The notes: generated by a model not told the origin, from the sequence alone. A stretch of 64,000 nucleotides of DNA from Firmicutes bacterium HGW-Firmicutes-11 (GCA_002840285.1 PHAE01000008.1:1-64000), one strand, 5' to 3'. Positions 41,878-63,821 are shown, counted from the first letter of the stretch. Made by a program: numbers and translations.

Positions 41878-42297
41878 ATGAATCGGTCCTTTGAAGAGCT
41901 GTCGATGCTCTTGCGTACTAGAAAGATACGACCTTCTTATCAGAAGGTTCAAATCCTTTCATACATGCATCGCGTTGGCGACCATCCTACCGTCGACCAG
42001 ATTTTTCACGAGCTGCGCAAAGAGATTCCAACACTATCAAAGTCGACGGTTTACAATGCATTGAGGTCATTTTGTGATGCAGGTATCGCACGAGAACTCG
42101 AAATGGGCGAGGCAGAAACGCGATATGATATCGTCGTAGAGCCCCACGGGCACTTTCGATGCAATCAATGTGGCACTATATACAATTTTACGGTCGACAT
42201 GAAGCAACATAGCGCTGCCGAGCTCACCGGATTTCGCATCGATGAGCGAAATGTGTATTTTAAAGGCATTTGCGATTCTTGCCTTTCGAATAAATGA
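41878..42297 (+). CDS. perR: Fur-family transcriptional regulator, PerR-like
   Basis: [69 protein letters not shown]...CDSC; adjacent to catalase. Confidence 0.85.
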
Positions 42298-42343
42298 TAG
42301 ATTGACTGCCATTCCACGAATCAAGAAAAGGGAGGTACCAACG

Positions 42344-43807
42344 ATGGATGAAAAGAAAAAGCTAACAACGGTCGCAGGCGCACCGGTCGATGACAATCAA
42401 AATTCGATGACTGCTGGTCCCAGGGGACCGATGTTGCTGCAGGATGTATGGTTTCTGGAAAAACTGGCGCACTTTGACCGGGAAGTGATCCCCGAGCGAA
42501 GGATGCATGCCAAAGGTTCCGGTGCTTTCGGAACATTTACGGTCACCCATGACATAACGAAGTATACCAAAGCAAAGATTTTTTCCGAAGTCGGCAAAAA
42601 AACCGAGATGTTTGTACGGTTTTCCACCGTTGCCGGTGAGCGCGGTGCTGCTGATGCCGAACGGGATATTCGCGGTTTTGCCATGAAATTTTATACGGAG
42701 GAAGGTAATTGGGATCTTGTAGGAAACAACACCCCAGTGTTTTTTCTCCGGGATCCTCTGAAGTTCCCCGATCTCAACCATGCAGTCAAAAGGGATCCTC
42801 GTCACAATATGAGGAGCGCAAAAAACAATTGGGACTTCTGGACTTCATTGCCGGAGGCCTTGCATCAGGTGACGATCACCATGAGTGACAGAGGCATACC
42901 TTTCTCTTACCGCTTTATGCACGGATTCGGCAGTCACGCCTTCAGCATGGTCAATGCAGAGGATCAGCGCGTATGGGTCAAGTTCCATCTCGTTTGCCAG
43001 CAGGGAATCAAAACTCTGACTGACGCAGAGGCCGAGGCTGTTGTTGCAAAGGACAGAGAGAGCAACCAGAGGGATCTTTACGATAGCATCGAACGAGGAG
43101 ACTTCCCCAAATGGACGATGTTCATCCAGGTCATGTCGGAAGAACAGGCGAACAACATGCCATACAACCCATTTGACTTGACCAAGGTATGGTACAAGAA
43201 AGACTTTCCCCTGATCGAAGTGGGCTATTTCGAACTCAATCGAAATCCGGACAATTATTTCGCCGATGTGGAACAGGCCGCATTCAACCCTGCAAATGTT
43301 GTACCGGGAATCGGTTTTTCTCCTGACAAGATGCTGCACGGCCGCCTCTTCTCCTACGGAGATGCCCAGCGGTACCGTCTCGGTGTCAACCATCATCAAA
43401 TCCCTGTGAATGCGCCCAAATGTCCCTTCCACAGTTTCCATAGGGATGGGCAGATGCGAGTCAATGATAATTTTGGAAGTGCATTGGGATATGAGCCCAA
43501 CAGCTATGGTGAATGGCAGGAGCAGCCGGAATTCAAAGAGCCAAAGCTTCCCATTTACGGTGATGGGTATCGCTGGGATTTCAGGGAAGACGACAGCGAC
43601 TACTATACGCAGCCTGGCCTGCTGTTCCGCCTGATGAGTCCGGAGCAACAACAGGTTTTATTCGAGAACACGGCAAGAGCGATGGGCGATGCTCCGGAAA
43701 TGATCAAACGACGTCACATCGGCAACTGCTACAAAGCGGATCCGGCCTATGGCAAAGGAGTTGCCATAGCATTGGGACTTTCGCTTGACGAAACCGATCT
43801 GCTTTAG
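42344..43807 (+). CDS. katA: Monofunctional haem catalase
   Basis: [68 protein letters not shown]...[23 protein letters not shown]. Start chosen at 42344. Confidence 0.97.
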
Positions 43808-52761: not shown

Positions 52762-54414
52762 TCAACGCGATCCTCGTTTGTAAATCACTTTTCCATCCAT
52801 GATCGTCATGTCGACATTGGCTTCCCGAATCTCCTGCGGAGACACCTGGAACAGATCCCGGTCTAAAATGACCACATCTGCCAGCATTCCGACGGCAAGC
52901 GTACCCAGTTCCTTTTCCCGACTCACGCCGTAGGCGGAGCCATAGGTGTACCCCCGGATCAGTTCCGCTACCGTCAGCTTTTCCGTCGGATTCCATCCAC
53001 CGACCGGAAGGCCGTCGTCGTGAAGTCGCGTGAGTCCTCGATGGATGCCATAGAAAGGATTATTGTCCACGACAGGACAATCGCTTCCCAGAGACAAGAC
53101 TCCGGTCGCGTTGAGCAGGCGTCGGAAGGGCCAGGTCTTGCCTGCTCTTTCTTCGCCGAGCACATATCGGTACTCTTCTCCCTCCCAGGTCGGCATGAGA
53201 CCGACATGCTCCGGTTGGACCGAGGGCACGATTCCTAATTCTCCAAACCTTGGGATATCCTCATCGGTAACGAGCTCGGCATGCTCAATGGCATGCCTTG
53301 CTTTGTTCGGTCCATAAGTTTTGATCGCGCGTTCGAAACAGTCCAACGTGAATCGGATCGCCCGATCCCCGATAGCGTGAATTTTGACGGACAAACCAAG
53401 GCGATGCCCTTCCAGGATACCATCTTCGATGCGGTCCAGCTCGCAAAGCTGAAATCCCCGGTTGCCTGGAGCGTCGGTATAATCCTCCAGCATCAGGGCA
53501 GTGTGAGTGATCGGAACACCGTCAACAAACTGTTTTAAAAGATTTGCACGCACCTTGTCTCCGGTACAGGTTTCTGCATCCCTGGCTGCTTGCTCAAGAT
53601 CGCCGAACAGATCCGACGCCGCATGGATCCGAACCGTCAGTTCTCCTTTTTCTTCCATCGCTTTGTAGGTCGACAAGCGTCCCAGATTTGCTCCAAAATA
53701 GGGTTGCACATCTACCAGCGAGGTGATCCCAAGCGGAGCTGCAGCATCCATGTACGCCTTGAGAAATCGCTTTTCCTGATTCATGGTCAGATCAAGGCTA
53801 TGTTCTCCAACCAGCGCCACTGCGCTTTCGTACAGAAATCCAGCCGGTTCTCCGTTTTCCAGACGGGCGATCTCGCCACCGAATGGATCGGGAGTATCTT
53901 TGTCGACTCCGGCGATCCGTAGCGCTTCGCTGTTGACCCAGGCGCCGTGAGCTTCTGCATTGAGCAGAAAGACCGGCCGATCGGGAAAATACCGATCCAA
54001 GGTCTCTTTCTTCGGCAAGACTTTGTCATCCCAGAACACGTGGTACCAGTTGAATCCGTAGACCCACCCTTCGCTCGGGTGGGCTGTCTCATACTCGTAC
54101 AGCATCTTTGCCGCTTCCTCTTCGGATTTGGCGGTTCCCATGTTGACGAAACACTTGTACATGCCCGCCAGGATCAGATGGGTGTGGCTGTCATGGAACC
54201 CAGGTACGACAAGGCGCTTCCCGGCATCGATGATCATTGTGTCCGGTCCGATGAATTTATCCACGCCGTCCTTTGCTCCCACGCCTACGATTCGGTTGCC
54301 TTTGATCGCAACAAACCCTGGTTTGGGAGCATCGGATATACTGTCAAAAATGGCTTCTCCTTGAATGACTATGCCTGCCGCTTGTGTCATTTCTTTCATT
54401 TCTTCCTCCATCAT
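52762..54414 (-). CDS. Amidohydrolase family protein (YtcJ-like, amidohydrolase 3)
   Basis: VVPGFHDSHTHLILAGMYKCFVNMGTAKSEEEA...AHGAWVNSEALRIAGVDKDTPDPFGGEI...KIHAIGDRAIRFTLDCFE...RHAIEHAELVTDEDIPRFGELGIVPSVQPEH...SLGSDCPV. Confidence 0.93.
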   Translation of the reverse strand: MMEEEMKEMTQAAGIVIQGEAIFDSISDAPKPGFVAIKGNRIVGVGAKDGVDKFIGPDTMIIDAGKRLVVPGFHDSHTHLILAGMYKCFVNMGTAKSEEEAAKMLYEYETAHPSEGWVYGFNWYHVFWDDKVLPKKETLDRYFPDRPVFLLNAEAHGAWVNSEALRIAGVDKDTPDPFGGEIARLENGEPAGFLYESAVALVGEHSLDLTMNQEKRFLKAYMDAAAPLGITSLVDVQPYFGANLGRLSTYKAMEEKGELTVRIHAASDLFGDLEQAARDAETCTGDKVRANLLKQFVDGVPITHTALMLEDYTDAPGNRGFQLCELDRIEDGILEGHRLGLSVKIHAIGDRAIRFTLDCFERAIKTYGPNKARHAIEHAELVTDEDIPRFGELGIVPSVQPEHVGLMPTWEGEEYRYVLGEERAGKTWPFRRLLNATGVLSLGSDCPVVDNNPFYGIHRGLTRLHDDGLPVGGWNPTEKLTVAELIRGYTYGSAYGVSREKELGTLAVGMLADVVILDRDLFQVSPQEIREANVDMTIMDGKVIYKRGSR

Positions 54415-54417
54415 CGG

Positions 54418-55299
54418 TCAGTCGCGGATGGAAAGCTTAAGGATTTCACCATAACTGTCGACGCGCCGGTCACGGTGAAACTGAAGAATGTCTCTTGCCC
54501 GTTTGATTTCATCCAGATCCAGTTCGGCAACGATCAGATCCTCTTCATTGCGTTTTCCTTCTGCGATCAGGTTTCCCCAGGGGTCGGAAACAAAACTTCG
54601 GCCATAAAACTCCATGAAACCGCTTCCGTCGGCTGCATCTTCTTTCCCGACCCGGTTACAAGCGCATACATAGAAATTGTTGTGGATCCCATGAGCTTTG
54701 ACGCCGTCGACCCAGGTTTGTGATGTATCCAGATCCGGATTGTCCGGTTCCGAACCGATCGCCGAGGGATAGAAGATGAAATCAGCGCCTTTGATTGCCA
54801 GGATACGGGACGGTTCCGGGAACCATTCGTCCCAACAGATCAACACTCCAAAGGTGCCGTATTTGGTTTTCCAGACATGGTAAGGAGAATCGCCCGGTGT
54901 GAAGTAATACTTTTCGATGTATTGCGGTCCTTCCGGGATATGATGTTTGCGATAGACTCCCAGTAGCGATCCATCAGCATCAATGACAGCTGCGCTGTTG
55001 TAATAGACGCCATCCATGGCATATTCGTAAAAACAGCTGACGATCACGACATCCAGTTCCTTCGCCAAAGACATCATCGCCTGATTGGACGGACCATCGA
55101 CCGGTTCCGCCCAGTCGTATTTCGTGTAGTCGATGATCTGTGCGAAATACTGGCCTCGGAACAGTTCCTGCGTACAGATGATTTTTGCGCCTTTTTCTGC
55201 TAGTGCACGTATCTGCTCTGCTGCTTTTTCAACATTCTTGTCTCGATCGATGTCACAGGCAAACTGGGTCATACCGATTTTCACTTTTCCTTTGTTCAT
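54418..55299 (-). CDS. Nitrilase-superfamily amidase, N-carbamoylputrescine amidase-like
   Basis: KIGMTQFACDIDRDKNVEKAAEQIRALAEKGAKIICTQELFRGQYF...YRKHHIPEGPQYIEKYYFTPGD...FGVLICWDEWFPEPSRILA (E-K-C triad). Confidence 0.9.
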   Translation of the reverse strand: MNKGKVKIGMTQFACDIDRDKNVEKAAEQIRALAEKGAKIICTQELFRGQYFAQIIDYTKYDWAEPVDGPSNQAMMSLAKELDVVIVSCFYEYAMDGVYYNSAAVIDADGSLLGVYRKHHIPEGPQYIEKYYFTPGDSPYHVWKTKYGTFGVLICWDEWFPEPSRILAIKGADFIFYPSAIGSEPDNPDLDTSQTWVDGVKAHGIHNNFYVCACNRVGKEDAADGSGFMEFYGRSFVSDPWGNLIAEGKRNEEDLIVAELDLDEIKRARDILQFHRDRRVDSYGEILKLSIRD

Positions 55300-55318
55300 T
55301 TGAAGCTAGCTCCTTTCT

Positions 55319-56686
55319 CTATGCAATTATGCCTGCAATCACAAACGCAATGAACCCTAGCGCAAGGGGCAGCGCGAGGATCGGAAGCACAGCTCTTGCA
55401 TAGTCGGAATTTCTGATTTGCGTGGAGGCACAGGTCAAAGTGACCGCATCGCTGTAGAAACAGCTGTGGCTGCCAAATGCCGCGCCTGAAATGACTGCAC
55501 CGCAAGCCAGCAGAAGATTGACGTCCATTGAGATGGAAAGCGGTACGATGATCGGGAACGCGATGGCGGCGACGCCCCAGAAGCTTCCGGTGGCAAAGGC
55601 GAGGAATCCGATCACTAAGAATGAGATCGCCGGCATCATTACCGGACTCAGGATCGGTTCGACTTTTTCAATGACATAAGGAGTGAGACCAAGGGCATCG
55701 TTTGCCTGTTGCAGGAAGAACGCAGCGCAGACGATAGCAAGCACAAGAACCATATCCATAAATCCACTGATTGCCGTATCACCATATTCCGCCGGCTTCA
55801 TCAACCGCTGCGGTGCGTAAAGAACGACACAGCTTACGATAGCTATGATCACGCCGATCAACATATCGGATGTGACCATTACAACTCCACCGAGGATCAA
55901 CATGGGAATGATAAAATTCATTGCCCTGGGTTTCTTGTCGAATGTTTTTACGATCTGTGTCTCTTCTTCTGCGATCTGCAGGGTGCTGTCCGGGAACGTC
56001 TGTCCTGTCTCCAAAACTCTTTGTTCCACTTTCTTCATCGGTCCCCAAATAGGAATCACTTTAAGAATCAGAAGCGGAACCACGAGAACTGCGACCCAGC
56101 CATAGAGAATGAACGGGATCGTGCTGATATAGGTCGCTGTTCCCATGCCTGCTTCCGCAGCTCCGGAAGCTTCCAGTTGGCCGGCCATGAAAGCAGACCA
56201 TGTGGAAAATGGAATGAGTACGCACACGGTGGCACCGGTGGAGTTGATGACATAGGCAAGAAATTCTCTTGGTACTCCATATTTATCGGTGACTTTTCTC
56301 ATTGCCGTACCGACTGCCAGTGCATTCAGGTAGTCATCGATGAACACGATGATCCCAAGGATCCATGTGCCGATCAATGCAGACTTCCTGTTCTTCACCA
56401 GGCGGGATGCGATATCGGAAAAGCCGAGGGCGCCTCCAGATTTTTCCAGCAAGGCCACCAGACTTCCGAACAAGCCACACACCAGAATGACCCAGACGGT
56501 CACACCGTCCATCATGACCACGTACACTGCGTCCAGCCATGCATAGAAGAAGTTCGTGCCTTCCAGGATGATAAATCCGATGACCGAGCCTAAAAGCAAT
56601 GGCTCCAGGGTCCGTCTTGTGAAAAGGGCCGTGATGATAACGACCGCTGCCGGGATCAGACTTAATGCTCCATAATGATCCATCAT
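55319..56686 (-). CDS. Na+/H+ antiporter NhaC-family transporter
   Basis: 455 aa; LIPAAVVIITALFTRRTLEPLLLGSVIGFIILEG...FIDDYLNALAVGTAMRKVTDKYGVPREFLAYVINSTGATVCVLIPFSTWSAFMAGQ...AFGSHSCFYSDAVTLTCASTQI. Confidence 0.9.
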   Translation of the reverse strand: MMDHYGALSLIPAAVVIITALFTRRTLEPLLLGSVIGFIILEGTNFFYAWLDAVYVVMMDGVTVWVILVCGLFGSLVALLEKSGGALGFSDIASRLVKNRKSALIGTWILGIIVFIDDYLNALAVGTAMRKVTDKYGVPREFLAYVINSTGATVCVLIPFSTWSAFMAGQLEASGAAEAGMGTATYISTIPFILYGWVAVLVVPLLILKVIPIWGPMKKVEQRVLETGQTFPDSTLQIAEEETQIVKTFDKKPRAMNFIIPMLILGGVVMVTSDMLIGVIIAIVSCVVLYAPQRLMKPAEYGDTAISGFMDMVLVLAIVCAAFFLQQANDALGLTPYVIEKVEPILSPVMMPAISFLVIGFLAFATGSFWGVAAIAFPIIVPLSISMDVNLLLACGAVISGAAFGSHSCFYSDAVTLTCASTQIRNSDYARAVLPILALPLALGFIAFVIAGIIA

Positions 56687-56855: not shown

Positions 56856-56885
56856 AGACAGTGTCTCTCCAAAGATACACTGTCT
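56856..56885 (-). terminator. Intrinsic terminator ending the B12/GGDEF operon
   Basis: Minus strand AGACAGTGTATCT-TTGG-AGAGACACTGTCT followed by TTTTC; 13-bp stem with one mismatch. Confidence 0.8.
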
Positions 56886-56918
56886 CCATATGGTTACATT
56901 TATGAACTATCAAAGATA

Positions 56919-57449
56919 TTACTGCCGTGCTTTTTGTATCCGTTGTCCAATATTTCGTGCTAAAAACAATTGGCCGATGGAAACGACCGCCCCCTCAAAT
57001 AACAATATCCCTGCATAAACGATCCTATTGTTGTCCAGGACTCCCATCAGTAAGGCAAACATATGGGTGGAAAGCAGCAGATCTGTCAGAAGGATCCCAA
57101 CGAGAAATCCCACGGAATTGGCAATCGTCAGAATCGGGACCGAGATCCACATCTTAAGTTTTAAAAGCAACGGCAATACCATCGCAACCAGAAAACATAT
57201 CAGAAGGAACACCATCTGCAATTTGAAAAACAAGAAACACAGCAGAGCCACCAATCCGAACACTGCAGCTTTTTCCACCGGCTTCGTTCTCACTGTTCCA
57301 AGGTGCAAAGCGATGGGCACGAGAAATGCGTTGAAGATATTGGTCACGCCTTTGAACATCGAAAAGGAAACGATGATAAGGGCGATCGCCAGAGCCCCTC
57401 GTGTGATACTCTTTGTATTAATTCGCCCATTCCCCCTTTTCTCGCTCAT
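56919..57449 (-). CDS. Small polytopic membrane protein of unknown function (last gene of the operon)
   Basis: MSEKRGNGRINTKSITRGALAIALIIVSFSMFKGVTNIFNAFLVPIALHLGTVR...; several TM helices, ECF-S/DUF2232-like look. Start at 57449 overlaps the GGDEF gene end. Confidence 0.7.
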   Translation of the reverse strand: MSEKRGNGRINTKSITRGALAIALIIVSFSMFKGVTNIFNAFLVPIALHLGTVRTKPVEKAAVFGLVALLCFLFFKLQMVFLLICFLVAMVLPLLLKLKMWISVPILTIANSVGFLVGILLTDLLLSTHMFALLMGVLDNNRIVYAGILLFEGAVVSIGQLFLARNIGQRIQKARQ

Positions 57450-58458
57450 ACTCCGAAGGATCAAACCTGCTATATCTGTTTTTTCCATTTCTTTTCGCCT
57501 GATACATGGCGAAATCGGCATATTCGATCAGATCGTAAATTTCTTCGGTATCGATCCCGAATACTGCCATCCCCGCGCTGATGGAAATCGGTATTTCATG
57601 TGTTTCAACGACTACTGGTTCCCTCAATACATGAGTCTGTAGCGCAGCCCAAAGGTCGGCGATGTCCTCGTCGTTCACATCCGGAAGTCCGTAGGTGAAT
57701 AGTCCGAACTCATCCCCCGAGATCCGCATCAGGATCGTATCAGTAAAAGGCAAGCTCCTGAGTCGATCTGCAAACGCGATCAAATAGCCGTCTCCGACAC
57801 GATGTCCGAAGGTATCGTTGACCTGTTTGAACGCATCGATGTCAACAAAGGTGAAAACCCCCAGCTTCCCGGGATTTTTTTTGATCGCCAGCTCGATTTC
57901 CGCCCGATATTGATACCTGCTGACCAGTCCTGTCAAGGCGTCTTTCACAAGACGATTGCTTAGATCTTCATTCAGTCGCTTCAACTGCGCGTTGGCCTTT
58001 TCCAGATTCCGCCTCGTGTTGGTCAACTCGTTGTTCAAGAATTGAATGTTCTCAAACTGATAGCGGGTCGCCTCACTGTTGTCAAATTTGATTTTTTTAT
58101 GCAATTCTCGATTGATCTGCATAAAGCGGTTGATGATGCTTTTGTATTCGCTTGCGTTGCTGTTTTCATCGAACAGCAACGTATCTGCTCCAAATACCAG
58201 GAATCGGGTTTCTTCCAGGGGAAGGACACAAAAGCGCACCGTTGCGCCATGCCCCACCAATGACAGAGGCCTTCCACAATGCAGCACATCGCTTTCGGGA
58301 GTGATGGAATCGAATAATTGGATCAACTCCGGTCGTTCCTCTGAGGAAAATAAATCGAAAAACGAGTGATCGACCGCAGGAACAATGTACGCCGGCTGAC
58401 TCCACCGGACATCACAGATCATGCCAGTCCTCTCGATGGTGATCAGAAAATGGATCAT
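57418..58458 (-). CDS. GGDEF-domain protein (putative diguanylate cyclase)
   Basis: C-term KDALTGLVSRYQYRAEIELAIKKNPGKLGVFTFVDIDAFKQVNDTFGHRVGDGYLIAFADRL...ILMRISGDEFGLF (SGDEF variant), coiled coil and novel N-term. Start ATG 58458 overlaps the upstream stop (TAATG). Confidence 0.9.
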   Translation of the reverse strand: MIHFLITIERTGMICDVRWSQPAYIVPAVDHSFFDLFSSEERPELIQLFDSITPESDVLHCGRPLSLVGHGATVRFCVLPLEETRFLVFGADTLLFDENSNASEYKSIINRFMQINRELHKKIKFDNSEATRYQFENIQFLNNELTNTRRNLEKANAQLKRLNEDLSNRLVKDALTGLVSRYQYRAEIELAIKKNPGKLGVFTFVDIDAFKQVNDTFGHRVGDGYLIAFADRLRSLPFTDTILMRISGDEFGLFTYGLPDVNDEDIADLWAALQTHVLREPVVVETHEIPISISAGMAVFGIDTEEIYDLIEYADFAMYQAKRNGKNRYSRFDPSEYEREKGEWAN

Positions 58459-59534
58459 TACTGGCTCTCCCCAAGAACGATCGTCTGGTTTGCCCAAGCA
58501 ATCAACTGGATCGCATTGTCCGTCGAAACGTCGACCCCCCATTTTTTCCAAAGATGATCGGTCTGCCGGAACGCCCTTCCTCCTACGGCGATCTTCAGCT
58601 CCGGAAACCGTTTTTTGATTTCCAGCACAAGTTTATGACAATCGATGATGTGTTGCGGCATAGTGACTGATAGACCAACAAGATGCGGCTGGAATTCTTC
58701 GATGCTGTGTAGGATCGCATCGATCGGGGCCGCCGATCCCAGATAATGGCTGTCCCAGCCATTATACTCAAAGAGATCAGAGACCATGCGAATTCCCATC
58801 TCATGAAGTTCACTACCCACGCAGCAGGTCAGAACCCGATGACCGTGCTTGGCCTGGCTGAAAATCAAGGGATAGAACTGAGAGAGCGCGGCTTGCGTCG
58901 TCGATGTGCAATAGTGTTCCTTGTCCACCGTGATCTCATGTCTGTGCCAAAGATCGCCTACTTCATACATGGCGGCCTGTAAAATGTCGATGTAGACATC
59001 TTCCAGTGAGATCCCGCTCTTGACTGCCCGATCCACCAGACCGACGGCAGCCCTTGTGTTGTTTTGCATCATGTAATCCAGATACTCGCGTTTCCATGCG
59101 TCGTGCCTTCCCCTTGTGAAAGGAAACGAAGGATCAAACTCAGCACATGCTGTTTTTGTAGCTTCTATGGCGCGATCCAGGTGGTATGCAGCCTTTTGGC
59201 CCTTCTCTTCCGGAAAAACTTTGAACAGCTCTTCCTTCAGAATCTTGTAATGATCGATCATATGATCCCGGATTCGCTCTTTGTCCAGTTCTTTCATAAA
59301 ATGGCAGAGCAAATAATAGATCCACACCGCATAATTATTGAACACCCGCTCGTCGTCGTATTCCATTGCGGTCTCCAGGTAGCTGAGATTATACAGGATG
59401 TCGTTGTACATTTCCCGTTTTCTCCGATCGTCATACTCGGATTCCAATCGTGTATCCTCTGCAAATTGTCGATTGTACACGTTTCTGGCCAACGCAGCCG
59501 TTTGTTCGCTGCTGTCCAAAAATAGCAGACTCAT
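58458..59534 (-). CDS. Cobalamin B12-binding sensor protein with CarH-like W-x9-EH motif
   Basis: Helical N-term; B12-binding-2-like YIDILQAAMYEVGDLWHRHEITVDKEHYCTSTTQAALSQFYPLIF; Rossmann domain with ExHxxG: VGSELHEMGIRMVSDLFEYNGWDSHYLGSAAPIDAILHSIEEFQPHLVGLSVTMPQH. Confidence 0.88.
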   Translation of the reverse strand: MSLLFLDSSEQTAALARNVYNRQFAEDTRLESEYDDRRKREMYNDILYNLSYLETAMEYDDERVFNNYAVWIYYLLCHFMKELDKERIRDHMIDHYKILKEELFKVFPEEKGQKAAYHLDRAIEATKTACAEFDPSFPFTRGRHDAWKREYLDYMMQNNTRAAVGLVDRAVKSGISLEDVYIDILQAAMYEVGDLWHRHEITVDKEHYCTSTTQAALSQFYPLIFSQAKHGHRVLTCCVGSELHEMGIRMVSDLFEYNGWDSHYLGSAAPIDAILHSIEEFQPHLVGLSVTMPQHIIDCHKLVLEIKKRFPELKIAVGGRAFRQTDHLWKKWGVDVSTDNAIQLIAWANQTIVLGESQ

Positions 59535-59552
59535 AACCGTGATCCCCTCTCA

Positions 59553-60956
59553 TTAAACAAATTCCGTATGCCCTACTGTAGCCTCAATGGTCTGTTGCGG
59601 AAAGACCGATTTGAACATGTCATAATACAGTCCTTCCTCGTAAGTCGTTATCCTGTGACCACTCGGAGTGACGGTTCCCGGCGCCCATATCCCGTCTCCG
59701 TAGGTCTCTTTGGCGTAGTCTTCCAATATGGAAAAGGAGCCGGCGCCGATGCTGAATTTTTGCTTTTTCCGCCTTGCAACCTCTGGCGGAAGCTGATCTG
59801 CAAATGCAGTTCTCAGTATCCACTTTTCCACTCCCTGGCAATTGATTTTCATCTGCGGCGGAATCGAATGGGCCAACAGAATCATCTCTTTTGAAAGAAA
59901 TGGCACATTGGCTTCCAGGCCAAATGCTGCGGACATACGATCCCCTCTCTGTAAACCGGTATTATGGAGATTTCTAAGCAGAGAGTCTGTCTCATCAAGC
60001 AATTGCTCCGGAGGAAGCCCCTTCATATACTCATACCCGCAAAACAGTTCGTCAGCCCCTTCTCCGGAGCAGACTTGATCTACGTGTTCGGAAGCAAGTC
60101 GCGCCAACATATAATTTGGAATTGAGCTTCTGACGAGCGCCATATCATATGACTCCAGATGATAAATGACATCAGGCAATACTGAAAGCATATCTTCAAG
60201 ATCATAACTGTACTCATAGTGATCTGTACCGAATTTATCTGCGCACAGCCTTGCATGGGAAAGGTCCGGACTACCTTTCATTCCAACACAAAAGCTTTTG
60301 ACTCCCGGAATTTCTTCCGAGACGATGGATGCAATGATGCTGCTGTCCAGGCCGCCGCTCAAATAGACGCCCATGGATGACGCATTATACAAAATTCTTT
60401 CGATCGAACTCTCCAGCTCTGTACGTATGGCCTCTTCCACTTCGCCCTTTGAAGCGTCAAGTCCTGACGCATCCAGTCCTTCCTTGTTATCTGTGAGAAA
60501 GTGTTTCTGCTGCGATCCATTGATTATACTTAATGCACCAGGTGGTATCGCCTCGATCTTTGACACACGATCTGCCAGTGCCTTGATCTCTGATGCGAAG
60601 TACCAGGTACCGTCGTTTTGTCCAACGTAAAGCGGCACGACTCCTAATGAGTCTCGCCCAAGAACAAGTCCTCGATTTGGATCATGGATGGCAAAAGCAA
60701 ACGTGCCTTCCAGTTTTGCTACACAACGGTCGCCATGGGTCTTATAGCAATCCAGCGCATAGTCTGCGTCTGTTATACTGTCAGAGCACATCTCACGATT
60801 TACCAACGCTCCGTTGAAAAGTATCGATTCTTGCTCGAAATCGGAGTCTGTAAACCACTGTTGATCGATGCAGCCGCGATGATCGATTGCTTCTGCCATC
60901 GTTTCCAATTGTTTGAATGAACCTCTCTGCCCGTAAATTCCTGCTATACCACCCAT
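59553..60956 (-). CDS. Asparagine-synthetase-like ATP-dependent amide ligase lacking Cys2
   Basis: MGGIAGIYGQRGSF...AIDHRGCIDQQW...GRDSLGVVPLYVGQ...; synthetase PP-loop YLSGGLDSSIIASIV; CSGEGADELFCGYEYM. Confidence 0.9.
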   Translation of the reverse strand: MGGIAGIYGQRGSFKQLETMAEAIDHRGCIDQQWFTDSDFEQESILFNGALVNREMCSDSITDADYALDCYKTHGDRCVAKLEGTFAFAIHDPNRGLVLGRDSLGVVPLYVGQNDGTWYFASEIKALADRVSKIEAIPPGALSIINGSQQKHFLTDNKEGLDASGLDASKGEVEEAIRTELESSIERILYNASSMGVYLSGGLDSSIIASIVSEEIPGVKSFCVGMKGSPDLSHARLCADKFGTDHYEYSYDLEDMLSVLPDVIYHLESYDMALVRSSIPNYMLARLASEHVDQVCSGEGADELFCGYEYMKGLPPEQLLDETDSLLRNLHNTGLQRGDRMSAAFGLEANVPFLSKEMILLAHSIPPQMKINCQGVEKWILRTAFADQLPPEVARRKKQKFSIGAGSFSILEDYAKETYGDGIWAPGTVTPSGHRITTYEEGLYYDMFKSVFPQQTIEATVGHTEFV

Positions 60957-62665
60957 CGTGTTCCTCCTTTTTCAGCATTCATGATCTGTGAAATTCTTTC
61001 TTCTTCTGAGAGTATCCGTTCCTCCTTTCGACTCCATGCATAAATCGCCCCGCCGACCGCCCGGGTCTCAAGTTCGCCGGCAGCGAAGGGATTGCCCTTC
61101 AGGTGCGGCGCGTCAAGCAACCCCGTTTTGATCGCCATTGCAAGCGTATCCGGATCCGTGAATGGATCTTGTTGATTTTGACCGATTTTTTGGATCGCGG
61201 CAAGCAATTGTTTTGCTTCGATCAGCAATACCCGCTTTCGTTTTTGGATCGTCGCATCAAAGGAAAAGTCCGGTTGCCCGTAAAAGCAGTTGCGGATCGT
61301 GCCGTGTACGATGTCGCAGCTTTCGATCACATCTTTCGCTTCTGCAGCGTGGTCTCCCTCGCAATACCCCACCACATGGATAATGTGTGGTTTCAGCTGT
61401 AGTGCGAACGCCGTCGAGGTCGCCAGCTGACCCTTTGCCACACATTCCCTCGGCGACAAATGAAGCAATCCGGCTCTTACCTGACGATAGGTAGTAAACT
61501 TGCTGTCGTGCAAGGATTCGATCAGTTCAATTTTTGCCAACATTTTGGCGATATCCATCGCCGGCGTGACCGTCGGCGGTGTGTTCATCATATATTGCGC
61601 GATGTAATGAGATACTCCTGCCGCCTTTGCGTTGTAGGCGGCCAAATATGCCATCACGACCGCAACGGTGTCATGTGCTTCTCTCAGGCTCCAATGATGA
61701 GATTCGTTGACTTCCAGTGGTATTTCGCCCCATTCAGAGTCCGTTGTCCTTCCATACCATCGCATTGTTTCTATGTTTTCTTTGATTGCCTGGACTAATG
61801 GTCGGTCGGATCGGCCGTCCAACCCGCTGTACCAGCATAACGGCACGGCGCCCCAGGCATTTTTGATGGTGTCCGCAGACATTTCCGCCCAAGGGATCAG
61901 ATCTCTGGTTCCGCTGTATATGCGAAGCAACGGCCGGTTGCCGTGATTGGCAGCCTCTCTCAGTCGTATAAGGTCTACTTTCGACCGTATGGGGGCACCA
62001 CCGGCGCCATCCATTCTCCGGTCCATTTCATCGGGACGGAAAAAAGACTGTTGCGCATTTTGATCCGGCGCAAGGGAAATGATATCGAGAACGCCGGATT
62101 CGGCGATTTCTTCAACGCCTTGTATCGTCGCATCCATATCCGGTAAACCAAAATGGTGACGGATCAAAGGAAGTGGAGACGAATCTTTGAGTCGATCAAG
62201 CAAGCTGTCGCTGTTTTTGCATTGAGCCACTGCATAAAGCGTCCCACCCAACAAGCATCTTGCTTCATTCATGTGTTCCAGTCCGGTAAAGCATTGTTCA
62301 AAGAGACCGCTCTGCTCGGCTACCACGCATACCGGAGGGGTTCCGGCAAAGGCCATCTTTAACGTAGCCAGTCGTTTTTCTCCCAGCGCGTCCCTCAAAT
62401 TTTCAATCAATTCGATTGCCACAGAGGGCGTCAAACGATAACTGACTCCCAAAATATCCGGTTGGTAGCGATCCACTGCCTCGACCCATTGTTCAACGGG
62501 GACCGCCGCGCCAAGAAAGTGAGTCTCATAACCCATTTCTTCAGCAATTCGTAAAAAAGAGACCACGCCTGCAACGTGAACACAGTTGCCCAACGCTCCT
62601 GCAACGACGACCTTTTTCTTTATTTCAGTCACATCAAATTCCTCCTTCCCTGCTGCTCCCTTCAA
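60944..62665 (-). CDS. B12-binding-domain protein with mutase-like (MutE-like) C-terminal region
   Basis: N-term VVVAGALGNCVHVAGVVSFLRIAEEMGYETHFLGAAVPVEQWVEAVDRYQPDILGVSYRLTP; downstream GVSHYIAQYMMNTPPTVTPAMDIAKMLAKIELIESLHDSKFTTYRQVRAG reads as a TIM-barrel mutase region. Subfamily assignment tentative. Confidence 0.72.
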   Translation of the reverse strand: MKGAAGKEEFDVTEIKKKVVVAGALGNCVHVAGVVSFLRIAEEMGYETHFLGAAVPVEQWVEAVDRYQPDILGVSYRLTPSVAIELIENLRDALGEKRLATLKMAFAGTPPVCVVAEQSGLFEQCFTGLEHMNEARCLLGGTLYAVAQCKNSDSLLDRLKDSSPLPLIRHHFGLPDMDATIQGVEEIAESGVLDIISLAPDQNAQQSFFRPDEMDRRMDGAGGAPIRSKVDLIRLREAANHGNRPLLRIYSGTRDLIPWAEMSADTIKNAWGAVPLCWYSGLDGRSDRPLVQAIKENIETMRWYGRTTDSEWGEIPLEVNESHHWSLREAHDTVAVVMAYLAAYNAKAAGVSHYIAQYMMNTPPTVTPAMDIAKMLAKIELIESLHDSKFTTYRQVRAGLLHLSPRECVAKGQLATSTAFALQLKPHIIHVVGYCEGDHAAEAKDVIESCDIVHGTIRNCFYGQPDFSFDATIQKRKRVLLIEAKQLLAAIQKIGQNQQDPFTDPDTLAMAIKTGLLDAPHLKGNPFAAGELETRAVGGAIYAWSRKEERILSEEERISQIMNAEKGGTRWVV

Positions 62666-63758
62666 TGATGAAGCTTCTGATCTCTTTCAGTGACATTCCC
62701 TCCAATCCCATTTTGTCTACGGTCCGTCCTTCTTCTCTGAAATCGGTCTGATGCAAGATCGAACCCAGGTCAATGATCGTGTCGATCGTTGGAGTCGGAA
62801 CGTTGCCCAAGCGGCCAAGAGAAGCGATGGGGACCAGACTCATAGGGATATCTTCTGAAATATATCGATGAAAAATCGTTTTCGGTGCTTTGATCCCGTC
62901 ATACCCCCGATTGTTTCGCATCGCTTCGTAAAGTGTCCTGCCTGCTGCATCGTATGCAATATAAAGCCACTCTCTGGCGGTCATTGCCCGAAATCCCAGG
63001 GACTCGGCGACGTCCACCCGCTCTTGATCCATTTTTTCCAGTATCAATGCAACGGAAGGCGTGATTCCTTCAGTATAATAGTCAAAATCTCCATTGGTGC
63101 TTTCGATTCGCGCCGCATTGAGCACGGTCACCGCCGGGTGAAAAATGGCGCCGATATTGTCCAAGCTGGTCTTCATGACGTTATCGCCGGGAATAAATTG
63201 CTTAAACGCGGTTCGCAGGGCGCTTACGACTTCCGGTGTGCGATGGGCCGGGATCGCTGCCACCGGCACACTGTTTTTGATTCGAAAGATGTGGGTTTGC
63301 GCAGGATTCATGGAACGGCTAGCATAGAGCAATGTCTGCGCCTCACAGACGACGACTTCCGCCTTGCACCCTTTCGCTCTTATTACGTTCAATACTTCCA
63401 GTGCTCCGCCGGTTCGGCCCGGATTCAGCACAATGATCTGCCCGTCGACCAGATGGTCCGCCAACTGTTCCGCGATGAATCGGTGGCCTGTCGCAGGAAG
63501 CACCACCATTAAAACATCTCTCCCCTGTATTGCCTCCTGAATGTCCGAAGTCACGATGGAAAGAGTGGCGAATCCTCCCGGGATGTTGTCTCCCGACGTC
63601 AGGATCTCGATACCACCACTGTTTTGTATCGCTCGTATCCGGTTTGCGCTCCGGTTATAAAGGCTCACATCCACACCGAGCAGCGACAGATGTCCGGCCA
63701 TTGCCGTTCCGCCGTGCCCTGCACCGAGAACTGCAAACTTTATATTGTTTTTTTCCAT
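62634..63758 (-). CDS. NAD/NADP octopine/nopaline (opine) dehydrogenase family protein
   Basis: MEKNNIKFAVLGAGHGGTAMAGHLSLLGVDVSLYNRSANRIRAIQNSGGIEI...VLNPGRTGGALEVLNVIRAKGC...DNIGAIFHPAVTVLNAARIES. Start chosen at 63758. Confidence 0.88.
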   Translation of the reverse strand: MEKNNIKFAVLGAGHGGTAMAGHLSLLGVDVSLYNRSANRIRAIQNSGGIEILTSGDNIPGGFATLSIVTSDIQEAIQGRDVLMVVLPATGHRFIAEQLADHLVDGQIIVLNPGRTGGALEVLNVIRAKGCKAEVVVCEAQTLLYASRSMNPAQTHIFRIKNSVPVAAIPAHRTPEVVSALRTAFKQFIPGDNVMKTSLDNIGAIFHPAVTVLNAARIESTNGDFDYYTEGITPSVALILEKMDQERVDVAESLGFRAMTAREWLYIAYDAAGRTLYEAMRNNRGYDGIKAPKTIFHRYISEDIPMSLVPIASLGRLGNVPTPTIDTIIDLGSILHQTDFREEGRTVDKMGLEGMSLKEIRSFIIEGSSREGGI

Positions 63759-63795
63759 ATATTCCTGTCTCCATTCTGTTGGGAGTAAAATAAAA

Positions 63796-63821
63796 GGCAG
63801 GCCAATATCCACAGGCCCGCC
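63796..63821 (-). terminator. Terminator separating the MazG-like gene from the downstream operon
   Basis: Minus strand GGCGGGCC-tgtggatatt-GGCCTGCC followed by TTTTATTTT; 8-bp stem with one wobble. Confidence 0.65.

Follow-up and report, generated by a model that had tools for sequence, protein, structure and literature searches.

The stretch of DNA analysed here, 64,000 nucleotides (nt) from Firmicutes bacterium HGW-Firmicutes-11 (PHAE01000008.1:1-64000) and referred to throughout as the window, carries a run of six minus-strand genes that an initial annotation had singled out as a tightly packed operon. In operon order these encode an opine dehydrogenase (62634..63758, 374 amino acids (aa)), a B12 mutase-like enzyme with an N-terminal B12 domain and a triosephosphate isomerase (TIM) barrel (60944..62632, 562 aa), an AsnB-like amide ligase lacking Cys2 (59553..60956, 467 aa), a CarH/photocobilin-like B12 sensor with an N-terminal helical domain (58458..59534, 358 aa), a GGDEF (SGDEF) diguanylate cyclase-like protein (57418..58458, 346 aa) and a small membrane protein (56919..57449, 176 aa). 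We refer to the first three as module A and to the last three as module B. Both strand and packing were borne out, with open reading frames at or very near the positions claimed and successive junctions of +1 (or -32), -13, +18, -1 and -32 nt. Five of the genes keep their coordinates, whereas the start of the mutase-like gene had to be moved; it most likely lies at GTG 62632, behind a GGAGG and one base past the dehydrogenase stop, giving 562 aa rather than the 573 aa obtained from the upstream TTG 62665. The 32-nt dehydrogenase/mutase overlap implied by the TTG start is probably not real.

Hairpins followed by T-runs flank the operon on both sides, as had been proposed. The one at 63796..63821 (minus strand, 8-bp stem, -17.0 kcal/mol, z -3.8) is the terminator of an upstream 106-aa gene, and the one at 56856..56885 (minus strand, -15.5 kcal/mol, z -3.6) is the terminator that ends the operon. 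With z comparing folding energy against shuffled sequences, both fold far beyond the shuffles; a simple terminator scan listed neither of them, probably owing to its loop limit. Because the junctions are tight and no terminator hairpin was seen between the six genes, the operon is likely expressed as a single transcript in this organism. An Rfam search of the window returned no riboswitch and no other family, and control by a cobalamin riboswitch was discarded. A corrinoid adenosyltransferase of the BtuR/CobO type (207 bits) is present in the source genome (1.93 Mb on 75 contigs, 95.85% complete), and none of the PduO type was found there; given the BtuR/CobO gene, the organism plausibly makes adenosylcobalamin (AdoCbl).

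Module A proves to be a genuine and widespread system centred on a B12 mutase family, with module B as its neighbour. At least 391 stretches in the genome collection encode relatives of the mutase, the best 80 of 391 being kept, and neighbourhoods were counted over 98 non-redundant mutase loci. In 87 of these 98 loci the gene just ahead of the mutase is the dehydrogenase, several of the remaining 11 being contig ends or re-ordered pairs, and no other gene in the 98 is linked to the mutase comparably. The pair occurs in Bacillota, Armatimonadota, Bacteroidota, Ignavibacteriota, Aminicenantes and one Lokiarchaeota bin, often with a 1-4 nt overlap or a short gap at its junction. Distance matrices of the two proteins are correlated (r = 0.73, above all 999 permutations, which reach at most 0.09); part of this correlation stems from shared genome ancestry, and the adjacency count carries more weight. 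A plasmid origin was also considered and set aside, the mutase having no match in a plasmid collection.

The dehydrogenase scores 169.9 bits against the Pfam family Octopine_DH (cut-off 30) and matches PDB entry 1bg6 over its full length with 284.7 bits. All 87 partner dehydrogenases retain the catalytic His and Arg, and 86 of them the Asp. Across 395 genomes of the order, related dehydrogenases were found in 101 (E <= 1e-30) and mutase homologues in 23 (E <= 1e-60). Since the dehydrogenases are far commoner, the mutase goes with a dehydrogenase and not the reverse. Upstream of the Thermoanaerobacter and Caldanaerobacter loci lies a gene for a YheO-type regulator.

Closer inspection of the mutase-like protein places a Pfam B12-binding domain at residues 20-110. 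The barrel has no Pfam match, TIM-barrel families included, and searching the PDB by sequence brings up little beyond B12 domains. An AlphaFold2 model built from 58 sequences gave a predicted local distance difference test (pLDDT) score of 90.3 and a predicted template modelling (pTM) score of 0.86. When this model was searched with Foldseek, the top matches were the E chain of glutamate mutase (6h9e_B and 1cb7_B; E 6.6e-16 and 7.7e-16, TM score 0.56-0.58 on the query), followed by lysine 5,6-aminomutase (1xrs), ornithine 4,5-aminomutase (3kow) and methylmalonyl-CoA mutases. The glutamate mutase E family PF06368 also matches two homologues with E 8.5e-6 and 1.3e-5, at 23-24 bits and below its cut-off of 26.6. 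Across 87 mutases of the window's family (type 1), the axial His and the Gly of the DxHxxG motif are kept and the Asp is replaced by Cys in about 85, giving CVHVAG.

A sister mutase family (type 2) of about 634 aa, 30% identical to that of the window, retains DxHTxG in its canonical form, and wherever the upstream side of a locus can be seen, an opine dehydrogenase precedes it. One such locus, G401 (L204:7417-14666), mixes the two types: its dehydrogenase, 77% identical to that of the window, is followed by a Cys-less AsnB-like ligase and the sister mutase, and then by genes for fumarase alpha and beta and malic enzyme. In another, G112 (L241:613-17423), the sister pair sits among FemAB-like, DegT-like and ATP-grasp genes and, on inspection of the sequence, sugar-transferase and flippase-like genes, an arrangement that looks like an exopolysaccharide or glycan synthesis cluster. 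Because bacterial polysaccharides carrying N-(1-carboxyethyl) amino acids exist, glycan decoration is one possible fate of the module A product.

The third component of module A is an amide ligase. An AsnB-like gene stands directly after the mutase, or one open reading frame on, in 15 loci and in one more cut by a contig end, spanning Bacillota, Bacteroidota, Ignavibacteriota, Armatimonadota and one alphaproteobacterial bin. The ligase of the window contains Asn_synthase and GATase_7 domains but begins with MGGIA, so that Cys2 is absent, and its glutaminase domain is degenerate. Cys2 is missing from 14 of the 16 operon ligases and kept in L121 and L079; as L121 groups in the tree with its Cys-less sister L110, the residue was probably lost more than once. 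The window ligase scores 261.5 bits against the TIGR01536 equivalog (cut-off 267.1) and is far nearer AsnB (205 bits) than CarA or beta-lactam synthetase (BLS; < 70 bits). It keeps SGGLDSS, E299, D302, E303 and R337, and the counterpart of Asp-400 is lost (Gly). With these pocket residues retained and the Asp-400 position changed, we infer that the substrate may be an amino-acid-like carboxylate, though not simple aspartate, and the acceptor free ammonia or an amine. The identity of an ordinary asparagine synthetase was rejected on the missing Cys2, the sub-threshold TIGR01536 score and the presence in the genome of another asparagine-synthetase-like protein that does carry Cys2 (MCSIMG). The place after the ligase that the sensor takes in the window is filled, in the closest relatives, by a gene for a class-V aminotransferase resembling cysteine desulfurase (L073:4837-5988, L075:8767-9969, L072:13552-14706).

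An unrelated ligase recurs in the same setting. A Ddl-like ATP-grasp ligase lies directly upstream of the dehydrogenase in five other type 1 loci, one of them truncated at a contig end, and in L239 and L244 a member of this ligase family comes after the sister mutase; ligases from both types are 62-81% identical to the first of them (L028:7119-8102, L030:12579-13574, L065:7661-8647, L145:6686-7687, L239:6040-7062, L244:1896-2918). The recurrence of an amide ligase in two unrelated folds is the best argument for a biosynthetic pathway. An ATP-driven ligase argues for synthesis over breakdown. Other neighbours seen on inspection of related loci (Lgt, Lnt, TldD and ATPase-like genes) were lineage-specific and were not counted as parts of the system.

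Module B begins with the sensor, in which Pfam finds B12-binding and B12-binding_2 domains. G193-W196 (GxxW), E206-H207 (EH) and G266-P270 (GxxxP) are invariant in a nine-sequence alignment and the axial-ligand His is kept; these three motifs belong, with GxxH, to the published light-response signature (PMC11796333), of which the last is not present, the sensor having SxxH (GSELH) instead. Its model (pLDDT 86.7) has CtMerR (8jbs) as nearest fold, with photocobilins close behind. The GGDEF protein scores 107.7 bits against the Pfam GGDEF family and has the diguanylate cyclase motif, with its SGDEF loop at residue 247, and neither Pfam nor NCBIfam matches the membrane protein. The sensor probably controls the separately encoded diguanylate cyclase-like protein, and in an anaerobe that is perhaps rarely lit, B12 sensing would be as likely a role as light sensing. 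Fusions of photocobilins with diguanylate cyclases have been described (PMC10979010).

When the two modules were compared across the 395 genomes, the sensor was found in 13 (E <= 1e-40) and coincided with the mutase in one, the source genome alone, against 0.76 expected by chance. A GGDEF gene follows the sensor in most of the 13, with a weak relative of the membrane protein in the same place in three other genomes, and the sensor stands beside none of the other module A loci examined. Given this chance-level overlap, the occurrence of module B alone elsewhere and the module A loci without a sensor, A and B are separate conserved units juxtaposed in the source genome, where a functional link between them is possible; none of the other genomes searched belongs to its genus, so the fusion cannot be dated. 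The characters assigned at the outset to the individual proteins hold up well: the dehydrogenase belongs to the Octopine_DH family with its catalytic residues intact, the larger B12 protein is enzyme-like by its predicted fold, the smaller resembles light sensors in signature and modelled fold, and the AsnB-like protein does lack Cys2. The three enzymes also form a conserved unit, as supposed. The further proposal that enzymes and sensor make up one system was not supported, since the genes of A rarely co-occur with those of B, a finding that does not extend to the links inside module A, and the coupling of a B12-dependent pathway to cyclic di-GMP (c-di-GMP) signalling, tempting as it is, finds no support beyond the source genome and is corrected here.

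We therefore read the locus, with middling confidence, as one transcription unit joining two independent modules, of which module A is a widespread and most likely biosynthetic pathway of mostly anaerobic prokaryotes. Its product would most likely be an amino-acid-derived amide made through an opine and B12 radical chemistry. In the step order and with the substrates that we infer, the dehydrogenase would reductively join a 2-oxo acid and an amino acid into an N-(1-carboxyalkyl) amino acid, the AdoCbl-dependent, glutamate-mutase-like TIM-barrel enzyme would carry out a 1,2-rearrangement, either of the opine or of a building block of it, and the ligase (AsnB-like in the window, Ddl-like ATP-grasp elsewhere) would activate a carboxylate with ATP and form the amide. 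A bolder version, which we consider unlikely, makes the mutase a new AdoCbl enzyme acting on the opine itself, converting an N-(1-carboxyalkyl) into an N-(2-carboxyalkyl) group and so yielding a beta-amino-acid-type product that is then amidated by either ligase. We know of no B12 enzyme that acts on secondary amines of the opine kind; were this version to hold, bacterial phyla and one archaeal bin would share a new class of metabolite pathway.

Several observations weigh against a biosynthetic, B12-radical module A standing apart from module B. AdoCbl radical chemistry is deduced from the modelled fold, and since direct hhalign comparison with glutamate mutase E is weak (probability 9.9%, E 0.0032), the glutamate-mutase-like assignment draws mainly on that fold; the Cys at the B12-motif Asp position of nearly all type 1 enzymes is a further point. 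Most loci have neither ligase beside the pair, which means that a third step is not found throughout. With only 18 nt between ligase and sensor, A and B are likely co-transcribed, which allows a local functional link, and both the transporter or YheO-type regulator beside some loci and the run into fumarase and malic enzyme genes in G401 would also fit catabolism. In such a catabolic scheme the dehydrogenase would oxidise an opine or N-alkylated amino acid, the mutase would rearrange the freed amino acid for fermentation and the ligase would be accessory. Many carriers are, judging by their names in the collection, fermentative anaerobes; glutamate, lysine and ornithine mutases, whose folds are nearest to that of the mutase, are fermentation enzymes, and the central-metabolism genes of G401 and an MFS-like (major facilitator superfamily) transporter following in L074 and L076 are in keeping with breakdown. 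We nonetheless consider catabolism rather unlikely, as amide ligases that spend ATP turn up repeatedly and in two unrelated forms, the loci do not widely share an acyl-CoA, lyase or thiolase cluster, and the sister pair of G112 lies within a cluster that looks devoted to glycan synthesis.

The remaining readings fare less well. That the B12 protein is a corrinoid methyltransferase-type or structural B12 protein rather than a mutase is suggested by the corrinoid methyl carriers that its B12 domain matches most strongly in sequence, and by the Cys at the canonical Asp; the full-length fold matches, however, are AdoCbl mutases (glutamate, lysine 5,6-amino-, ornithine amino- and methylmalonyl-CoA), PF06368 matches the barrel regions of homologues and no methyltransferase gene is conserved as a partner, making this improbable. 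Decidedly improbable is a single six-gene system in which a B12 pathway with a B12 or light sensor feeds c-di-GMP signalling. Gaps of at most 18 nt, the single closing terminator with no terminator hairpin seen inside the run and the use of B12 by both halves would suit it, but joint presence in one of 395 genomes against 0.76 expected, module B as its own unit in other genomes and module A loci without an adjoining B do not, and beyond the source genome it was rejected on the co-occurrence counts and the free-standing module B. A route to a beta-lactam, in which a 1,2-shift of the opine to an N-(2-carboxyethyl) amino acid precedes ring closure by a beta-lactam-synthetase-like enzyme, is chemically self-consistent, and both CarA and beta-lactam synthetase are homologous to the ligase; yet CarA Tyr-345, one half of the ring-closing Tyr-Glu dyad, aligns with the family-invariant Glu-299, as in asparagine synthetase, and the bit scores place the ligase far nearer AsnB. 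A beta-lactam synthetase identity fails at this key residue, and we regard the route as extremely improbable.

Elsewhere in the window, the next downstream minus-strand run (52762-56686) encodes a Na+/H+ antiporter-family permease, an N-carbamoylputrescine-amidase-like nitrilase and an Amidohydro_3 hydrolase, apparently a set for degrading carbamoyl compounds or amides. A full catalase gene lies at 42242-43807 in this apparent anaerobe.

AdoCbl mutases comprise a small set of known reactions to which new ones are rarely added, and the present family, with at least 391 encoding stretches in many phyla, combines a barrel without Pfam coverage, a model of high confidence and an almost constant partner, whose chemistry points the search for substrates to opines and the units they are made from. 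The dehydrogenase is homologous over its full length to the N-(1-D-carboxylethyl)-L-norvaline dehydrogenase of Arthrobacter (1bg6) and keeps the counterparts of the catalytic residues His-202, Arg-292 and Asp-297, but here its regular genomic partner is a B12 mutase. The mutase shares a B12 Rossmann domain and TIM barrel with glutamate mutase (GlmS/GlmE, methylaspartate mutase), its best fold match, yet is a single chain with the B12 domain N-terminal, 14% identity and Cys for the DxHxxG Asp, and beside it we recognised an opine dehydrogenase and no methylaspartate pathway genes. Like asparagine synthetase B and human ASNS, the ligase keeps the SGGLDSS loop and Glu-364, Asp-367, Glu-368 and Arg-403 (human numbering), whereas Cys2 is lost in 14 of 16 operon members, the glutaminase has decayed, a different residue stands in place of Asp-400 (Gly in the window) and the TTxR ahead of the pocket Arg has become ALVR or similar. 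The sensor resembles photocobilins and CarH-type photoreceptors (PMC10979010, PMC11796333) in GxxW, EH, GxxxP, the axial His and the CtMerR (8jbs) fold, and differs in its SxxH, in an N-terminal helical domain instead of a C-terminal biliverdin domain and in a GGDEF output encoded by a separate gene.

The initial annotation did not recognise the combination as a described system, and we found no pathway assigned to the gene set; subscription papers were largely outside the search, and a report there could be missed. The dehydrogenase-B12 pair itself, by contrast, was recorded in the 2009 genome paper of Halothermothrix orenii, the only account found, as an operon of unknown role, Hore_09740/09750, with an octopine dehydrogenase followed by a cobalamin B12-binding protein (PMC2626281). 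A Halothermothrix metagenome-assembled genome (L117) is among our module A loci, and the question raised in 2009 becomes testable with purified proteins. The two accounts agree in placing an octopine dehydrogenase directly before a cobalamin-binding protein. Where the earlier one confined the pair to a handful of thermophilic, anaerobic genera (PMC2626281), the present analysis adds a wide taxonomic range of many phyla including non-thermophiles, the glutamate-mutase-like fold of the mutase, a sister mutase family and recurrent amide ligases.

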